From: a virus
IMG/VR virus record: IMGVR_UViG_3300046454_000245
Span: 1 to 40,828 of that record
Direction: 5' to 3' (one strand)
Length of the DNA stretch: 40,828 nt
Both the position numbers and the translations under genes were made by a program. Positions 36,510-40,828 of the stretch are shown in pieces; the stretch's first letter is position 1, and every line of letters begins with the position of its first letter. Under the pieces are notes generated by a model. It did not search any database and was not told the DNA's origin. It saw only the letters and a list, made by a program, of their open reading frames with translations.

Positions 36510-37053
36510 CGGGAGCCTCCTTGGGGACGAAGAGTTCTTGGAAGCACTCGAAGACGAGTTCGAAACCGACAGCCTTCATGAGGCGGAGGAGGCGAGCCTT
36601 GGCATCGGCGTAGGTGACCGGGGAGCCCGGGCCGAGTTCCTTCGTCGAGGCTTGGTCCTTCAGCTTGATCCAGAGAGACATGGCATTCATTGCCGTCTCG
36701 TAGTTCATGCCGGGAGCGAACGCGATCTTGCGGAGGGAGCCAAGGATGCGCTTGCGGGTGTCCTCGTCGTCGATCGCGCCCGTTTCGAGGTCGCGGAGGT
36801 CGGCATCGGTCAGGAGGGTATTCGGGTCAGCAGCGGGACCCCGCTTCGCCCTCGGCGCGGTGGCCCGGCGCTTGGTCTGAGGAGCCAGAACCCCCTCATC
36901 AATGAGTCCCTTCCTAGCTCTCCCCACTGTAACAGGATCGACTCCTGTGTTCCGGGCGACCTCCGAGTCGCGGGATTCAGGATGCTCGATTAGGTACTGT
37001 GCAGCAAGCTCACGGCGCGTCGGGCGCGGACCGGGAGGCGTAGGATCAGCCAT
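36454..37053 (-). CDS. HTH DNA-binding protein, candidate terminase small subunit or regulator
   Basis: 199 aa from ATG 37053 (MADPTPPGPRPTRRELAAQY), eight bases after GGAG; the longer frame to 37236 is rejected because it crosses the promoter and operator region. The N-terminal 50 residues contain a helix-turn-helix pattern (QYLIEHPESRDSEVARNTGVDPVTVGRARKGLIDEG). The C-terminal part is helical. As first gene of the leftward operon it could be the small terminase subunit that recognises the packaging site, or a repressor acting on the repeated motifs upstream. Neither can be settled from sequence. Confidence 0.6.
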   Translation of the reverse strand: MADPTPPGPRPTRRELAAQYLIEHPESRDSEVARNTGVDPVTVGRARKGLIDEGVLAPQTKRRATAPRAKRGPAADPNTLLTDADLRDLETGAIDDEDTRKRILGSLRKIAFAPGMNYETAMNAMSLWIKLKDQASTKELGPGSPVTYADAKARLLRLMKAVGFELVFECFQELFVPKEAPDVQHSEAVVAADPPPASA

Positions 37054-37153
37054 CTTGAAACTCCTTTTTTTATCCGGCACATAGGCACCCTGCCTCTGTC
37101 TCTCAGCGCGCGAGTTGGGGTCGTACCCGGCACCCCCATGGAGAGGGGTAGGG

Positions 37154-37182
37154 ATGAGACGAGTGGGGTGGGGAGAGGTCAA
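37154..37182 (-). promoter_or_regulatory. Candidate sigma70-type promoter for the leftward operon
   Basis: On the minus strand TTGACC (37182-37177) is followed by a 17-base spacer and TCTCAT (37159-37154). Five of six and four of six positions match the sigma70 consensus. It would start transcription about 95 bases before the HTH gene. No T-rich UP element is seen. Confidence 0.5.
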
Positions 37183-37220
37183 TCCGTGTGGTGACACACG
37201 TGCCCGAGCCGCGAGGGGGT

Positions 37221-37236
37221 GTGTCAAAATGGACAC
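37221..37236. promoter_or_regulatory. Operator-like palindrome, copy 1
   Basis: GTGTCAAAATGGACAC, an inverted repeat GTGTC/GACAC around AAAATG. An identical 16-base copy lies at 37,392-37,407. Adjacent bases add GACACGTGTC, giving a second overlapping palindrome. It lies upstream of the leftward promoter and is a candidate binding site for the HTH protein at 36,454-37,053. Confidence 0.6.
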
Positions 37237-37321
37237 GTGTCTACTCTACCACACCCCGCGCCCGGCTGCGCCCGTTCCGTGTCAAGGAACTGTCAACTCT
37301 GCTGCTCCCAATGGCCGTGCG

Positions 37322-37346
37322 TAACGCAATGGGGCGCAATGCGTTA
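37322..37346. repeat. Inverted repeat TAACGCA / TGCGTTA
   Basis: TAACGCA at 37322-37328 pairs with TGCGTTA at 37340-37346, with 11 bases between. Both arms are perfect. It lies between the two operator-like palindromes and could be a protein-binding or hairpin element. A role is not deducible. Confidence 0.5.
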
Positions 37347-37391
37347 TGCCCGCCTCGTAACCTCAAGCGGCACAACGACATCCAGCATACT

Positions 37392-37407
37392 GTGTCAAAA
37401 TGGACAC
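37392..37407. promoter_or_regulatory. Operator-like palindrome, copy 2
   Basis: An identical copy of GTGTCAAAATGGACAC; here the flanking T and A extend the arms to TGTGTC/GACACA. Half-sites TGTCAA also occur at 37,280 and 37,291 (plus strand) and, in reverse, as TTGACA at 37,442 and 37,579. The last coincides with the -35 box of the rightward promoter. Confidence 0.6.
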
Positions 37408-37578
37408 ACCCCAACAATGCGTGTTGCACGAGATGCAGGACTTGACAACCTCGTAAGTCGTTGCGGCACAATAGCCGACCGATTGGCAAGGCTCTTGCAC
37501 TGTCCTTCGGTGCAGGGCGACGGCGGAGCGGGCGACGAGGACCCGCGCAGCGGCCGCGAACGAAACGAACGAGGGGCC

Positions 37579-37607
37579 TTGACAGTCCGCACGAGCGGCC
37601 CCATACT
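37579..37607 (+). promoter_or_regulatory. Candidate sigma70-type promoter for the rightward operon
   Basis: Perfect TTGACA (37579-37584), a 17-base spacer and CATACT (37602-37607, four of six matches to TATAAT). Predicted start near 37,614. It gives an untranslated leader of about 690 bases before the first rightward gene. A weaker TTGACA with a 19-base spacing to CACAAT lies at 37,442-37,472. Confidence 0.6.
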
Positions 37608-37952
37608 GGAGTCACAGCAGCGGCACACGGCTGGACCCTCGCGGGGCCGGTCGAGACAGCAGACAGGTTAGGTCCGGTCCAGCGTGTCACCGCGCTGGTT
37701 CAAAGGCACCGCGTACGTAAGTCGTCCGGCCACTCCCAAGGTGGTCCGGGGCTCTCTCCCGACACGAGCTAGACGGGGAACCCCAAAGGCGCAGTCAAAA
37801 GGTGCACCGGGGCCACTACATAGCAGCCTACGGCAGAGCGTAGGGTCAACGGGATACGCGATGCAGTCAGTCATCGCCCCGCACCCGAAGCGAAGCCCGA
37901 TGCCGCGAACCCCAGAGATGCCATGGCAGATGGTCGTACCATCGCGCCGGGA

Positions 37953-38043
37953 GTCCGACTCACGTTGTAGGTGGGCTCCTTGCGAAGCGCGGTGGGAGCC
38001 CGGTGAGCCTCAATGGCGGCAGCACGGGGAACATGAGTCGGAC
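37953..38043 (+). ncRNA. Candidate structured RNA closed by a 10-bp stem
   Basis: GTCCGACTCA (37953-37962) is perfectly complementary to TGAGTCGGAC (38034-38043). Inside, GGGCTCC (37973-37979) pairs with GGAGCCC (37995-38001), and GCC/GGC forms a further small stem. The result is a multibranched fold of about 91 bases. It lies in the untranslated leader. Could be a stable sRNA, attenuator or protein-binding site. Hand-folded only. Confidence 0.5.
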
Positions 38044-38209
38044 ACGATATGCGGCGGCTCCAACAGTCAGCGCGACGACGACAGTGGTCACGACCCGCGA
38101 GGGACGAGGTGACCAAGCCCAGCGCAGCGACACGAGAGTGCCAACCGCTAACCTCCGACGAAGGCAGGCAAGGCCATCACAGGGCAGGACAGCGACTCAG
38201 ACTGACACC

Positions 38210-38260
38210 GCCCGTGGTTACTCGGTTCAGCACCGAGTCTGACGAGCCCGCAGCACGGGC
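38210..38260 (+). ncRNA. Candidate structured RNA with a T-arm-like hairpin
   Basis: GCCCGTG (38210-38216) pairs with CACGGGC (38254-38260). Inside lies CTCGGT-TCAGC-ACCGAG (38221-38237), which can also be read as a tRNA T arm (5-bp stem CTCGG/CCGAG with loop TTCAGCA). It lies just upstream of the first rightward gene. The resemblance to a T arm is partial because the conserved A58 position is G. Confidence 0.4.
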
Positions 38261-38300
38261 CAGCCCATCAGGGCGAAACCAATCTCCAAGGAGCATCACA

Positions 38301-38489
38301 GTGGCTAACGTGGACGTGAAGGTCAAGGGCAACGTGGCGACCATCACCATCGACCTGTCGGCAAACTTCGGTCCGTCGGCGAGCGGCAAGACGCAGATGG
38401 TGGCGAGCACGCACGGCAACATCGTCATCCCCGGCACGGACGTGACGCTGGGCCTCAACGCCTACCGCAAGACGCCGAAGGCGGCCTAA
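38301..38489 (+). CDS. Small phage protein (62 aa), first gene of the rightward arm
   Basis: GTG start at 38301, seven bases after GGAG. The product has VKVKGNVATITIDLS, GPSASGKTQMVASTHGN and DVTLGLNAYRK, a pattern I associate with a small conserved phage protein of unknown function (beta-rich, about 60 residues). It is placed as the first gene after the structured leader, so it is likely early and highly expressed. Confidence 0.7.
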   Translation: MANVDVKVKGNVATITIDLSANFGPSASGKTQMVASTHGNIVIPGTDVTLGLNAYRKTPKAA

Positions 38490-38510
38490 GCAACACAGCA
38501 GCACGTGAGA

Positions 38511-38556
38511 CACGGGGCGACCCAAGCCGGTCCGGACTTCAGTGTCCAGCCCCGTG
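38511..38556 (+). ncRNA. Compact three-way-junction RNA element
   Basis: An outer stem CACGGGGC (38511-38518) / GCCCCGTG (38549-38556) encloses two 4-bp hairpins: GACC-CAAGCC-GGTC (38519-38532) and GGAC-TTCAGT-GTCC (38534-38547). Only one unpaired base separates the hairpins and one follows the second. All 16 pairs are Watson-Crick. It is followed by CACACTTTT, so it could act as an RNA processing signal or weak terminator directly before the tRNA-like RNA. Confidence 0.55.
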
Positions 38557-38565
38557 CACACTTTT

Positions 38566-38662
38566 GGACGCCTCAGCAAGACACGCTGAACGTCAGTGAA
38601 TCCCTTGGTAGGCCACCAAGTAGAGGACACTGACGGCCCGGGTTTGACTCCCGGGGCGTCCA
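38566..38662 (+). tRNA. tRNA-like RNA with enlarged anticodon-side arm, no encoded CCA
   Basis: Acceptor GGACGCC (38566-38572) pairs fully with GGCGTCC (38655-38661); the discriminator is A. T arm: CCGGG (38138-equivalent positions 38638-38642), loop TTTGACT, CCCGG (38650-38654). A D-arm-like hairpin CAGC-AAGACAC-GCTG (38574-38588) lacks the usual GG. In place of a normal anticodon arm there is an 8-bp stem CGTCAGTG (38591-38598) / CACTGACG (38628-38635) enclosing an internal loop and a second stem CTTGGT (38604-38609) / ACCAAG (38615-38620). The total is 97 bases, longer than a class I tRNA. No anticodon can be assigned. It could be a tRNA mimic, an intron-bearing tRNA or a degenerate class II tRNA. 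Confidence 0.65.
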
Positions 38663-38740
38663 CGCATCTCCAGAACGAACGAGGCGTCGGTCCACGCCTA
38701 CCGCAGCACGCGGATGGAGAGGTACAACAGCGGAGGCAAC

Positions 38741-38935
38741 ATGGCGAGGCTCATGAAGCACAAAGAGAAGGTCGTGAAGGTGACCAAGGTCAACACGTTC
38801 GTCGTCGTGAACACCCCGCATGGTCAGTTCGTCATCGACGTGTACCCCGACTCGTGCGTGATGCTCCTGCCCAATGTGCCAAAGCCCAGCACCGCAACCG
38901 ACACGTGCTTCCACGTGTACCCGAGGCCCGCATGA
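38741..38935 (+). CDS. Small hypothetical protein (64 aa)
   Basis: ATG 38741 follows GGAGG at four bases; a longer frame to 38714 lacks a site. The product MARLMKHKEKVVKVTKVNTF is a short beta-rich domain with VVVNTPHGQFVIDVYPDSCV. Its stop overlaps the next start (ATGA). Function unknown. Confidence 0.6.
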   Translation: MARLMKHKEKVVKVTKVNTFVVVNTPHGQFVIDVYPDSCVMLLPNVPKPSTATDTCFHVYPRPA

Positions 38936-39084
38936 GGATAGTAGACCTGACGTGGATTCCATCACTCGGCAAGTTCCGGGTGGGCTACGAGAATGGCAAG
39001 TACGAGTATGTCACCCCCGAGATTCTGGCCGCGTCCTTCATGCGGGCCATCACCGTCAAGAGGCATGATGTTCAATCTGCGTAG
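38932..39084 (+). CDS. Small hypothetical protein (50 aa)
   Basis: ATG 38932 overlaps the preceding stop. It reads MRIVDLTWIPSLGKFRVGYE and continues with EYVTPEILAASFMRAI, a KTPR-like short beta/alpha peptide. It resembles the small KTSC-type or similar phage peptides in length only. Function unknown. Confidence 0.55.
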   Translation: MRIVDLTWIPSLGKFRVGYENGKYEYVTPEILAASFMRAITVKRHDVQSA

Positions 39085-39253
39085 TGCACACCGGCTCGCC
39101 ATCGAGGCGAAACCAGCGACGCTGATTCAACTAGCGTACCGCGAACACCGGAGCGAGTGCAACACGTGCAGCACCGACGAGGTATGTGACGAGGCAGCGG
39201 TGCTGCTCACCGCCGTGGGCTTCGAACAGGACGAGGTGGAACGGTGGTTGTGA
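39068..39253 (+). CDS. Small Cys-containing protein (61 aa)
   Basis: Two adjacent ATGs (39065 and 39068) follow AGAGG; the second has the better spacing. The product carries SECNTCSTDEVCDEA, three cysteines spaced CxxC-x5-C, perhaps a metal site. It has a helical N terminus and an acidic helical C terminus. It overlaps the preceding gene. Function unknown. Confidence 0.55.
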   Translation: MFNLRSAHRLAIEAKPATLIQLAYREHRSECNTCSTDEVCDEAAVLLTAVGFEQDEVERWL

Positions 39254-39351
39254 ATCTGCCGTGGACATGGTGGCTCGCGTATGCGATGCTCACCGCTGGT
39301 CAGGTCGCAATCGTGGTCTACGCGCTCTGGCGCGTCAGGAGGGGAGATTGA
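39244..39351 (+). CDS. 35-aa single-pass membrane peptide
   Basis: GTG 39244 follows GAGG at seven bases; the GTG at 39250 in frame is less well spaced. The product MVVNLPWTWWLAYAMLTAGQ continues with VAIVVYALWRVRRGD: one hydrophobic helix of about 22 residues followed by a basic tail (inside). The stop overlaps the TTG start of the next gene. Function unknown. Confidence 0.6.
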   Translation: MVVNLPWTWWLAYAMLTAGQVAIVVYALWRVRRGD

Positions 39352-39542
39352 CACGCAAGGACTATGAGAATATCGCGGCAGAGTTGCGCTCTCAGTACGC
39401 ACTCATGACCGCTGAATCGAGCGACATGCGACAAGGGTATCGCTACGCTGTCCTCACCGTGGCGGATGCACTGGCGAACAGTAAGCTATTCAACCGTGAC
39501 CGGTTCATCGCTGCAACCGGCATCTACGAGGGGGCCGCATGA
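39348..39542 (+). CDS. Small hypothetical protein (64 aa), TTG start
   Basis: TTG 39348 overlaps the previous stop (TTGA) and follows AGGAGG at five bases, so a rare start codon is compensated by a near-perfect site. The product has TRKDYENIAAELRSQYALMT and, near its end, RDRFIAATGIYEGAA, a helical small protein of a kind common in phage early regions. Its stop overlaps the next gene (ATGA). Confidence 0.65.
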   Translation: MTRKDYENIAAELRSQYALMTAESSDMRQGYRYAVLTVADALANSKLFNRDRFIAATGIYEGAA

Positions 39543-39895
39543 GCTACACACACGAACGTAGGATGGAGGTCGAGCGCATCCTCGTGGACGCATACATCGA
39601 GGAAGCCATGAAGCGTGGCTGGAGCCTTCTCGGTGTGGACGACGAGAGCAACGACAGTGGCTGGAGCACCGTGGCTGACCGTGCGGCTGCTGTCGAGGCT
39701 GTGTTCAGCTACGATGAATGCCACGTGTACTTCCGTGGTCCGGGCAAGCGTATCAAGTCGCCCATGTCGTGGATGTGGTTCGTGCTGGGCAACGAAGGCT
39801 GGACGGTGTTGGCTGATTACACCGTGGACCTCGACCCCGCAGTCGATGCACTGGATGCGAAGGTCGAGGCGTTCGAGGAGGAATACTACCGATGA
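39539..39895 (+). CDS. Hypothetical protein (118 aa)
   Basis: ATG 39539 overlaps the preceding stop. It has an acidic helical N terminus (MSYTHERRMEVERILVDAYI), a middle with SDYDECHVYFRGPGK-like turn (EAVFSYDECHVYFRGPG), a WMWFVLGNEGWTVLADYT beta segment and an acidic C-terminal helix. No family recognised. Translationally coupled to the next gene. Confidence 0.6.
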   Translation: MSYTHERRMEVERILVDAYIEEAMKRGWSLLGVDDESNDSGWSTVADRAAAVEAVFSYDECHVYFRGPGKRIKSPMSWMWFVLGNEGWTVLADYTVDLDPAVDALDAKVEAFEEEYYR

Positions 39896-40107
39896 AGCCT
39901 GACCTTGAAGCGGATGCAGAACTGGCAGGTATCATCGAGGATGCGGTACATTCACACGGGACACTGTGGGTGCTCCGCATCGTGATGAATGCAACCGACA
40001 CACGCGCTGGTGTCCTTGGCGCACGAGGTGATGTCGTGGGGGCGAATGACCTACTCCGACGCTCCGCGATACTCAAGCAAGCCTACAAGGATTGGAGCCG
40101 ACCGTGA
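39892..40107 (+). CDS. Small hypothetical protein (71 aa)
   Basis: ATG 39892 overlaps the previous stop. The product has an acidic helical start (MKPDLEADAELAGIIEDAVH), an LWVLRIVMNATDTRA segment and a basic C terminus. Its stop overlaps the GTG start of the CCA-adding enzyme (GTGA). Function unknown; it may be made in proportion to that enzyme. Confidence 0.6.
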   Translation: MKPDLEADAELAGIIEDAVHSHGTLWVLRIVMNATDTRAGVLGARGDVVGANDLLRRSAILKQAYKDWSRP

Positions 40108-40828
40108 ATCTCTTTCTCGTGGGTGGGACAGTGCGTGACTGGCTGCTCAAACGCCCAGCATCGAACGACGTGGACTTCGCTGTGGAGGCTGAGTCCTTCG
40201 ATGCCATGAAGAACGCCCTCGCTGCGCGGGGGTTGCGTGTGTGGCAGGAGCGCCCTGAGTTTGTGACTCTGCGTGGGAAGCTGCCCACGTCGGAACTTGG
40301 AGACTTCGGGGGACTGCTCAAGCTGGGGCGTGGAACGTGGCTCGACGCTGACTTCACGCTGTGCAGGTCCGAGACGATGTACCACGACAAGCGACACCCG
40401 AGCACGGTGACGCCTGCGAGCCTCAAGGTGGACCTCGCACGTCGGGACTTCACGGTGAACGCGGTGGCTGTGTCCGAGAACGGCACGTGGCATGACCCGC
40501 ACTATGGTCAGGCCGATGCGAAGGGACAGTGGCTCCGCACGGTGGGGAACGCGCAGGACAGGTTCAACGAAGACCCGCTCCGGATGCTGCGTGCATTCAG
40601 GTTCGCGGTGATGCTCAACCTGAGCCCCGTGCACGAGGTGGTGGAAGCGTGCTGGACACCCGAGTTGCTTGAGTTGCTGGGCACACTGCCAGTGGAGCGT
40701 GTGAGGCAGGAGTTGGGCAAGGCGTTCGCGCACGACTGGTTCCGTGCAGTCCAGCAGATGGGTGACACGTTCTTGGGACTCGGCAAGGCTGTGTCCAAGC
40801 ACCACCCGAACCTGTGGCTCAAGGCCAC
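40104..40828 (+). CDS. cca: CCA-adding tRNA nucleotidyltransferase (partial at window edge)
   Basis: Class II tRNA nucleotidyltransferase / poly(A) polymerase family, which adds CCA to tRNA 3' ends using CTP and ATP. The GTG start at 40104 overlaps the previous stop. Visible motifs: VGGTVRDWLL (residues 6-15) with the catalytic NDVDF pair (D22 and D24); DLARRDFTVNAVAV; DPHYGQADAKGQWLRTVG; and RFNEDPLRMLRAFRF with the EDxxR nucleotide-selecting pattern; then PVERVRQELGKAF (neck helix). At least 241 residues precede the window end with no stop. If the window is circular the frame ends at base 61, giving about 261 aa, shorter than most bacterial enzymes (about 370-410). Whether it acts on CC, A or both is not decidable. 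Confidence 0.9.
   Translation, partial: MNLFLVGGTVRDWLLKRPASNDVDFAVEAESFDAMKNALAARGLRVWQERPEFVTLRGKLPTSELGDFGGLLKLGRGTWLDADFTLCRSETMYHDKRHPSTVTPASLKVDLARRDFTVNAVAVSENGTWHDPHYGQADAKGQWLRTVGNAQDRFNEDPLRMLRAFRFAVMLNLSPVHEVVEACWTPELLELLGTLPVERVRQELGKAFAHDWFRAVQQMGDTFLGLGKAVSKHHPNLWLKA

Follow-up and report, generated by a model that had tools for sequence, protein, structure and literature searches.

Gene content and anatomy of the RNA

The window (the whole stretch of DNA analyzed, 40,828 nt) is a linear 40.8-kb IMG/VR contig from a soil phage, with genes for a family A DNA polymerase, a portal protein, a major capsid protein, and a large terminase. Divergent gene blocks are separated by ~1 kb without clear genes (37250–38300); this interval includes a promoter-like TTGACA-17-CATACT on the + strand (37579–37607) and may be the leader of the transcript that carries the RNA described here. 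An ORF of about 62 aa (38302–38489) lies upstream of the RNA, and related loci have one at a similar offset. The RNA and its surroundings comprise the following features, with the basis of each assignment in parentheses:

38511–38565, + strand: stem-loop CACGGGGC..GCCCCGTG plus CACACTTTT (sequence; common to L190)
38566–38662, + strand: tRNA-like domain, TLS (fold, z-score, shape descriptor, homologs)
38566–38572, + strand: acceptor stem, 5′ strand GGACGCC (pairs with 38655–38661; covaries in seven clade members)
38573–38589, + strand: D-like arm TCAGC-AAGACAC-GCTGA, without GG (fold; GG loss across the clade)
38591–38635, + strand: extended arm replacing the anticodon arm (fold)
38638–38654, + strand: T arm CCGGG-TTTGACT-CCCGG (U54, G57, and A58 retained; C56 lost)
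38655–38661, + strand: acceptor stem, 3′ strand GGCGTCC (fold; clade comparison)
38664–38722, + strand: conserved 3′ domain (covariance model R1, fold, homologs)
38678–38701, + strand: near-invariant motif AACG-AGGCGT-(CGGTCC)-ACGCCT-AC (exact pattern in viral contigs)
38682–38699, + strand: hairpin Pb (within the motif at 38678–38701)
38701–38713, + strand: hairpin Pc CCGC-AGCAC-GCGG (fold; Pc covaries in the family)
38741–38935, + strand: small ORF following the RNA (its ATG shares the frame of the listed start at 38714)
40104–40828, + strand: CCA-adding tRNA nucleotidyltransferase, cut by the contig end (phrog_2244, 3e-39; PF01743, 6e-18)

The stem-loop directly 5′ of the TLS is a possible terminator or processing hairpin, and a GGAGG (38732–38736) precedes the small ORF.

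The tRNA-like fold of the window is not a chance structure. Its minimum free energy is −50.5 kcal/mol (z = −5.29), which none of 200 shuffled sequences equals. A strict descriptor consisting of acceptor, U8, and T arm was scanned over ~2.2 Mb of related phage DNA on both strands and gave 55 matches (the window locus being counted twice); nearly all are recognizable tRNAs, and the remainder are the window RNA and about two obvious false matches. The original prediction of a non-canonical tRNA-like RNA, or tRNA mimic, at 38566–38662 with a complete 7-bp acceptor stem and a T arm thus agrees with the fold, in which all seven acceptor pairs are Watson-Crick, as well as with the homologs. Its finer points hold too: the D-like arm lacks GG, the T loop TTTGACT is off consensus, and the predicted 8-bp plus 6-bp extended hairpin takes the place of the anticodon arm. 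The outer 8-bp stem of this arm (38591–38598/38628–38635) runs into an inner 3 + 6 bp hairpin, the full order being 8 bp, AA bulge, 3 bp, TAGA bulge, 6 bp, and loop AGGCC. The discriminator-like base A38662 is followed by CGC, and CCA is not encoded, as had been stated.

A tRNA cloverleaf with a 7-nt anticodon loop is absent from the window RNA. With a structured insert where the anticodon arm would be, the RNA cannot decode. ARAGORN finds no tRNA or tmRNA anywhere in the window, and Rfam 15 at its gathering score matches nothing there; relaxed Rfam searches returned chance matches only for 37000–40828, and nothing credible beyond tRNA for the window together with two family members. The suggested likeness to tmRNA consequently found no support. 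A tRNA with a removable intron is unlikely: the extra arm is paired throughout, its length and structure vary among members, and there is no constant insertion site. Known self-splicing tRNA introns are far longer than the extra arm.

A conserved 3′ domain

The RNA element runs past 38662 into a second domain at 38664–38722. The original prediction was therefore right about the TLS half of the element and missed the 3′ domain, the homologs, and their wide distribution. The stem Pa (38667–38672/38715–38720) encloses AACG-Pb-AC and Pc, and the best-conserved stretch, AACGAGGCGTCggtccACGCCTAC (38678–38701), lies just 3′ of the TLS. Covariance model R1 matches the window at 38664–38723 with 18.9 bits (E = 0.083 in 1.09 Mb), a score that is modest alone; the assignment is also backed by 25 exact nucleotides in common with L190, by nucleotide similarity to L190 and L086, by the position after the TLS, and by the anatomy. 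The joined element, TLS plus 3′ domain, has a fold z-score of −4.5. Positions 38566–38722 carry every family element in order (TLS acceptor and T arm, Pa, AACG-Pb-AC, Pc); a further hairpin, Px, is missing from the window and likewise from L095, L190, L086, and L164. Judged by sequence and predicted structure, the window copy is a divergent member of the family.

Homologs in the phage clade

Relatives of the window phage were retrieved via their capsid and polymerase proteins. BLASTN with 38481–38720 found related stretches in four of these (G009, G014, G006, and G010), each with a tRNA-like fold upstream and each with a different acceptor sequence. The acceptors of the relatives, the last two of them from a later search, are:

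L095: GGGCAGG/CCTGCCC
L111: GGACGCT/AGCGTCC
L090: GCGGGCA/TGCCCGC
L086: GGGCCA/TGGCCC
L190: GGACGTG/CGCGTCC
L090:200: GGGGCGG/CCGCCCC

Across the seven clade members, six of the seven acceptor positions show two or more pair types and just one of 49 cells is unpaired, and every relative was found through its 3′ side, never through the acceptor. Homologs without conserved stems, which the original prediction had named as evidence against it, are not what we see: the stems are kept with compensatory changes.

U54, G57, and A58 of the T loop are retained in most clade members, whereas U55-C56 is found in none of the seven, compared with 30 of the 32 members that we call class A (see below). Clade D loops also lose GG; D-loop GG and T-loop U55-C56 are both present in 29 of 32 members outside the clade. 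The missing GG and the off-consensus T loop therefore point to one concerted loss of the D-loop/T-loop elbow contact in the clade of the window. Neither ARAGORN nor the Rfam tRNA model matches the loci of the clade relatives. Searching with a model made from unrelated phages recovers L103, L086, the window, and two G010 copies; in two members found in this way (L103 and L090:200) a U-A pair of Pb has become C-G by changes on both sides, giving AGGCGC/GCGCCT. The two 3′ domains of G010 (L090:200–271 and L090:18101–18185) each follow a tRNA-like fold.

Distribution and layout of the wider family

As an exact pattern, the Pb motif occurs in at least 119 stretches of viral contigs; a stricter pattern with two extra bases occurs in seven contigs among 84,980 prokaryote species, all from metagenome-assembled genomes, and given the two-base difference the comparison is qualitative. 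Phage isolates that infect Pseudomonas, Erwinia, Acinetobacter, Arthrobacter, Tetrasphaera, and E. coli carry the motif; individual phages that have it include:

Psa21 and D6 (Pseudomonas): between tRNA genes
pEa_SNUABM_4: between tRNA-Glu and tRNA-Asp
Kumotta, QuinnAvery, TJE1, and Acinetobacter SR: motif present
Aeromonas 62AhydR11PP: upstream of the small terminase gene
CUS-3, IME10, and Huey: in the Q–S interval, with pR′-tR′ before the motif and the holin gene after it

Part of the TLS of D6 is annotated "tRNA-OTHER", and the CUS-3 element is matched in 156 of 5,426 E. coli genomes.

Class A members share one layout: TLS, one discriminator base, GC, Pa, usually GUA with hairpin Px, and then GAAC, AACG, Pb (AGGCGU/ACGCCU), AC, AA, Pc, GAG, Pa′, and GG. 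In their TLS the acceptor, D, and T arms are normal, and a structured insert of 40–110 nt takes the place of the anticodon loop. The Rfam tRNA model accepts them by placing the insert in the anticodon loop (L174, 37.7 bits; RF00005 also matches L151, L157, and L222; class A range, about 37–45 bits). A strict TLS lies upstream of 33 of 108 motif sites; for random positions within these tRNA-rich loci the figure is 26 of 1,869. GC follows the discriminator at 27 of the 33 sites.

A tRNA mimic without a cleavable anticodon might, if abundant, titrate tRNA-targeting nucleases or other tRNA-binding proteins of host defense. Phage tRNAs that counter tRNA-cleaving defenses are established, and a decoy of this kind would fit class A RNAs that keep canonical acceptor, D, and T arms yet have no anticodon, their place in phage tRNA clusters, and the CCA enzyme of the window phage. 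However, the anticodon nucleases known so far depend on the anticodon loop, and exactly that part has been removed here; the canonical elbow features are lost in the clade of the window, and the conserved 3′ domain is left unexplained. We regard a decoy as improbable.

In 15 of 20 class A inserts, CTAG is flanked by complementary bases (ACTAGT, TCTAGA, CCTAGG, or GCTAGC), compared with about 25% expected by chance. Some members may thus carry a self-complementary loop (NCUAGN′) through which the RNAs dimerize at the anticodon site. We rejected a palindromic kissing loop as a universal feature: it is absent from L103 and L090:18k, and the window has only GGCC.

Other members depart from the class A layout. 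In L183 and L208 the TLS is enclosed by an outer stem; in L220, L154, and Kumotta Pb occurs with other structures and without a TLS; and in CUS-3 and 62AhydR11PP Pb lies inside the tRNA-like shell. Since Pb lacks a TLS in some phages and sits within the shell in others, shell and motif are separable. HK75, conversely, has a TLS without Pb at the CUS-3 site.

The HK75 RNA (L273:1125–1265) is tRNA-like, with insert ATACTAGTCATG, and lies at the late-leader site. The same RNA is found in Salmonella phage vB_CECAV_048 (L275) and in Skatevirus phages, where part of it is annotated tRNA-Ser; full or partial matches to it occur in 122 phage records. At the same late-leader site, lambda (L274, about 44855–44940) has a 9-bp shell, GTTGTGCTG...CAGCACAAC, without a T arm, which gives the impression of a tRNA-like element that decayed or was replaced. 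In L254 and L209 the Pb loop has its complement in a stretch further upstream (CATGAA/TTCATG and CCAAGC/GCTTGG, respectively), so that these members, which lack the class A layout, may form a pseudoknot.

Covariation

Swap tests were run on 45 dereplicated sites selected only by T arm and GC, which avoids circularity. With its own partner strand, the acceptor is fully complementary (7/7, with U8) at 29 of 45 sites, compared with 17 of 527 combinations with the strands of other members; for Pa (7/7 Watson-Crick) the corresponding counts are 18 of 45 and 6 of 523. For the 3′ domain, a covariance model built from five unrelated 3′ domains gave 42 matches in one set. The 3′ domain alignment shows 148 double-changed cells (39 when shuffled) and a covariation score of 0.537 (0.159 shuffled; slid versions, at most 0.117); the 42-match alignment was fitted to the model and so leans toward it, and a hand-checked five-sequence alignment agrees. 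The invariance of Pb is partly an effect of searching by its sequence, its letters being the search pattern. An automatic Pa finder proved too permissive (375 of 640 shuffled sequences), and covariation was counted on A3/A4 and by the swap tests instead. By these measures the acceptor and the enclosing stem Pa covary strongly.

These results bear directly on whether the RNA is a degenerate tRNA pseudogene with an insertion. Such a gene would have no anticodon and could have lost its elbow contacts, as in the clade of the window, and annotators do label genes of this kind "tRNA-OTHER" or fragmentary tRNA-Ser. The reading is contradicted because acceptor, T stem, and Pa covary: compensatory changes across unrelated phages indicate a maintained structure. 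The window TLS, moreover, has a fold z-score of −5.3. We give the pseudogene reading almost no credence.

The covarying stems also speak to a catalytic role, with the 3′ domain as a candidate ribozyme next to the TLS. A constant GC, immediately 3′ of the discriminator, opens the domain, its conserved junction has invariant single-stranded AACG and AC, and theta ribozymes take the same site beside phage tRNAs (PMC10879173). Pa, Px, Pb, and Pc nevertheless form nested hairpins, and the nested double pseudoknot of HDV-like ribozymes is absent; there is no Rfam ribozyme match, and the motif is also found where nothing tRNA-like precedes it. A ribozyme seems to us highly doubtful.

Neighboring genes

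The CCA-adding enzyme was predicted to lie downstream of the RNA, and it does, starting at 40104; its link to the RNA is weak. It follows the RNA at 0.3–5.3 kb, on the same strand, in the window, G006, G009, and G010/G011. In G007, by contrast, a long distance separates them, and a CCA enzyme was not detected in G014. Since the ordinary tRNAs of the relatives mostly encode CCA already, the enzyme is not specific to this RNA. Neither a pattern search with the CCA enzyme nor a search with the 73-aa ORF revealed close viral neighbors. When the protein families beside motif loci were compared none recurred, which indicates that the RNA stands alone.

The genes that follow the RNA raise the question of a cis-acting leader, in which TLS and 3′ domain would govern processing, antitermination, or translation in the operon that follows. 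In the clade of the window the 3′ strand of Pa lies just before a start codon (L086, L095, and L090:200), and both the position before the holin gene in CUS-3, IME10, and Huey and that before the small terminase gene in 62AhydR11PP would suit a leader. Yet the downstream gene is not constant. Class A copies often sit between tRNA genes or have a new TTGACA box after them, and several have no directly following ORF. We consider a leader unlikely, though not negligibly so.

A proposed mode of action

That the RNA is a non-decoding tRNA mimic joined to a 3′ module is well supported. From its observed structure, conservation, and distribution and its lack of a protein partner, we infer a function, namely how it may be expressed and processed, act in trans, and find its partner. 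The reading we prefer, to which we give about an even chance, is a two-module stand-alone phage RNA in which a conserved 3′ module, carried by a tRNA-like scaffold, acts in trans.

Such an RNA would be about 157 nt long, a tRNA-like shell followed by a 3′ junction domain. Host tRNA enzymes would recognize the shell: RNase P would cut before G38566, the T loop may be modified in members where it is canonical, and CCA might be added after 3′ trimming. This processing would give the RNA exact ends and stability, so that the shell would serve as a natural "tRNA scaffold". The work itself would fall to the insert and, most of all, to the 3′ domain, acting in trans by binding a factor found in very different hosts, for which the ribosome, RNA polymerase, or a general RNA-binding protein are candidates. 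The partner is taken to be common to such hosts because the Pb hairpin sequence is conserved across phages of unrelated bacteria. More tentative, and in our estimation somewhat short of an even chance, is the broader proposal of a phage-wide RNA class in which the non-decoding shell carries an AACG-AGGCGU junction that binds or acts on a machine common to diverse bacteria.

Comparison with known RNAs

We found no Rfam family for this RNA (release 15; window and related loci), and a full-text literature search for the motif letters returned primer and small-RNA coincidences only. We found no paper that describes it; subscription journals were thinly covered, so that an earlier description is possible. 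The RNA that joins a TLS to AACG-AGGCGU looks like an unnamed phage RNA family. Pas sRNAs and STnc100, which lie near lambdoid holins, were rejected as candidates, as STnc100 has no match at these loci.

The family shares with canonical tRNA (RF00005) the 7-bp acceptor, U8, and the D and T arms, but lacks the anticodon loop and has a constant GC and the 3′ domain in place of CCA; the window copy differs further in lacking D-loop GG, T-loop C56, and an Rfam match. Like the tRNA-like domain of tmRNA, it has a tRNA-like end with a long helix rather than an anticodon arm; unlike tmRNA, it has no mRNA-like tag region, and ARAGORN and Rfam are negative. The theta (HDV-like) ribozymes of gut phages are structured RNAs directly 3′ of phage tRNAs, in phages that also have CCA-less tRNAs and CCA enzymes (PMC10879173). 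They differ in secondary structure and sequence, and the upstream partner here is a non-decoding tRNA-like RNA. GOLLD and ROOL are phage RNAs near tRNA islands, and GOLLD combines a conserved 3′ region with a variable 5′ one (PMC12286853). The present RNAs are far smaller (about 150–240 nt) and have a tRNA-shaped 5′ domain, and the GOLLD and ROOL covariance models match neither the window nor 31 related loci.

The stable RNAs C and D of T4 (species 1 and 2 RNA) are likewise small stable phage RNAs in a tRNA cluster, and RNA C has a perfect T arm, CCGGGTTCGAATCCCGG, with no evident anticodon arm. In T4 69000–74500, neither RNA C nor RNA D contains the AACG-AGGCGU motif or shows the GC/Pa arrangement, and a 7-bp acceptor is not obvious in RNA C. 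With the motif missing from both, we rejected them as relatives. The isolated phages of E. coli, Pseudomonas, and Erwinia offer a handle on the role of stable non-tRNA RNAs in tRNA clusters, and the family would account for unassigned gaps and "tRNA-OTHER" calls in such clusters.

The bacterial Y RNA YrlA is a non-coding RNA with a tRNA-mimicking module, and Y RNAs pair with Ro60 genes; beside the loci described here, no shared protein family was found. Most known tRNA-like RNAs that lack an anticodon come from tmRNA, Y RNAs, or plant RNA viruses. If DNA phages possess a large family of their own, one that ARAGORN misses and Rfam release 15 does not contain, it would represent a new kind of tRNA mimic.
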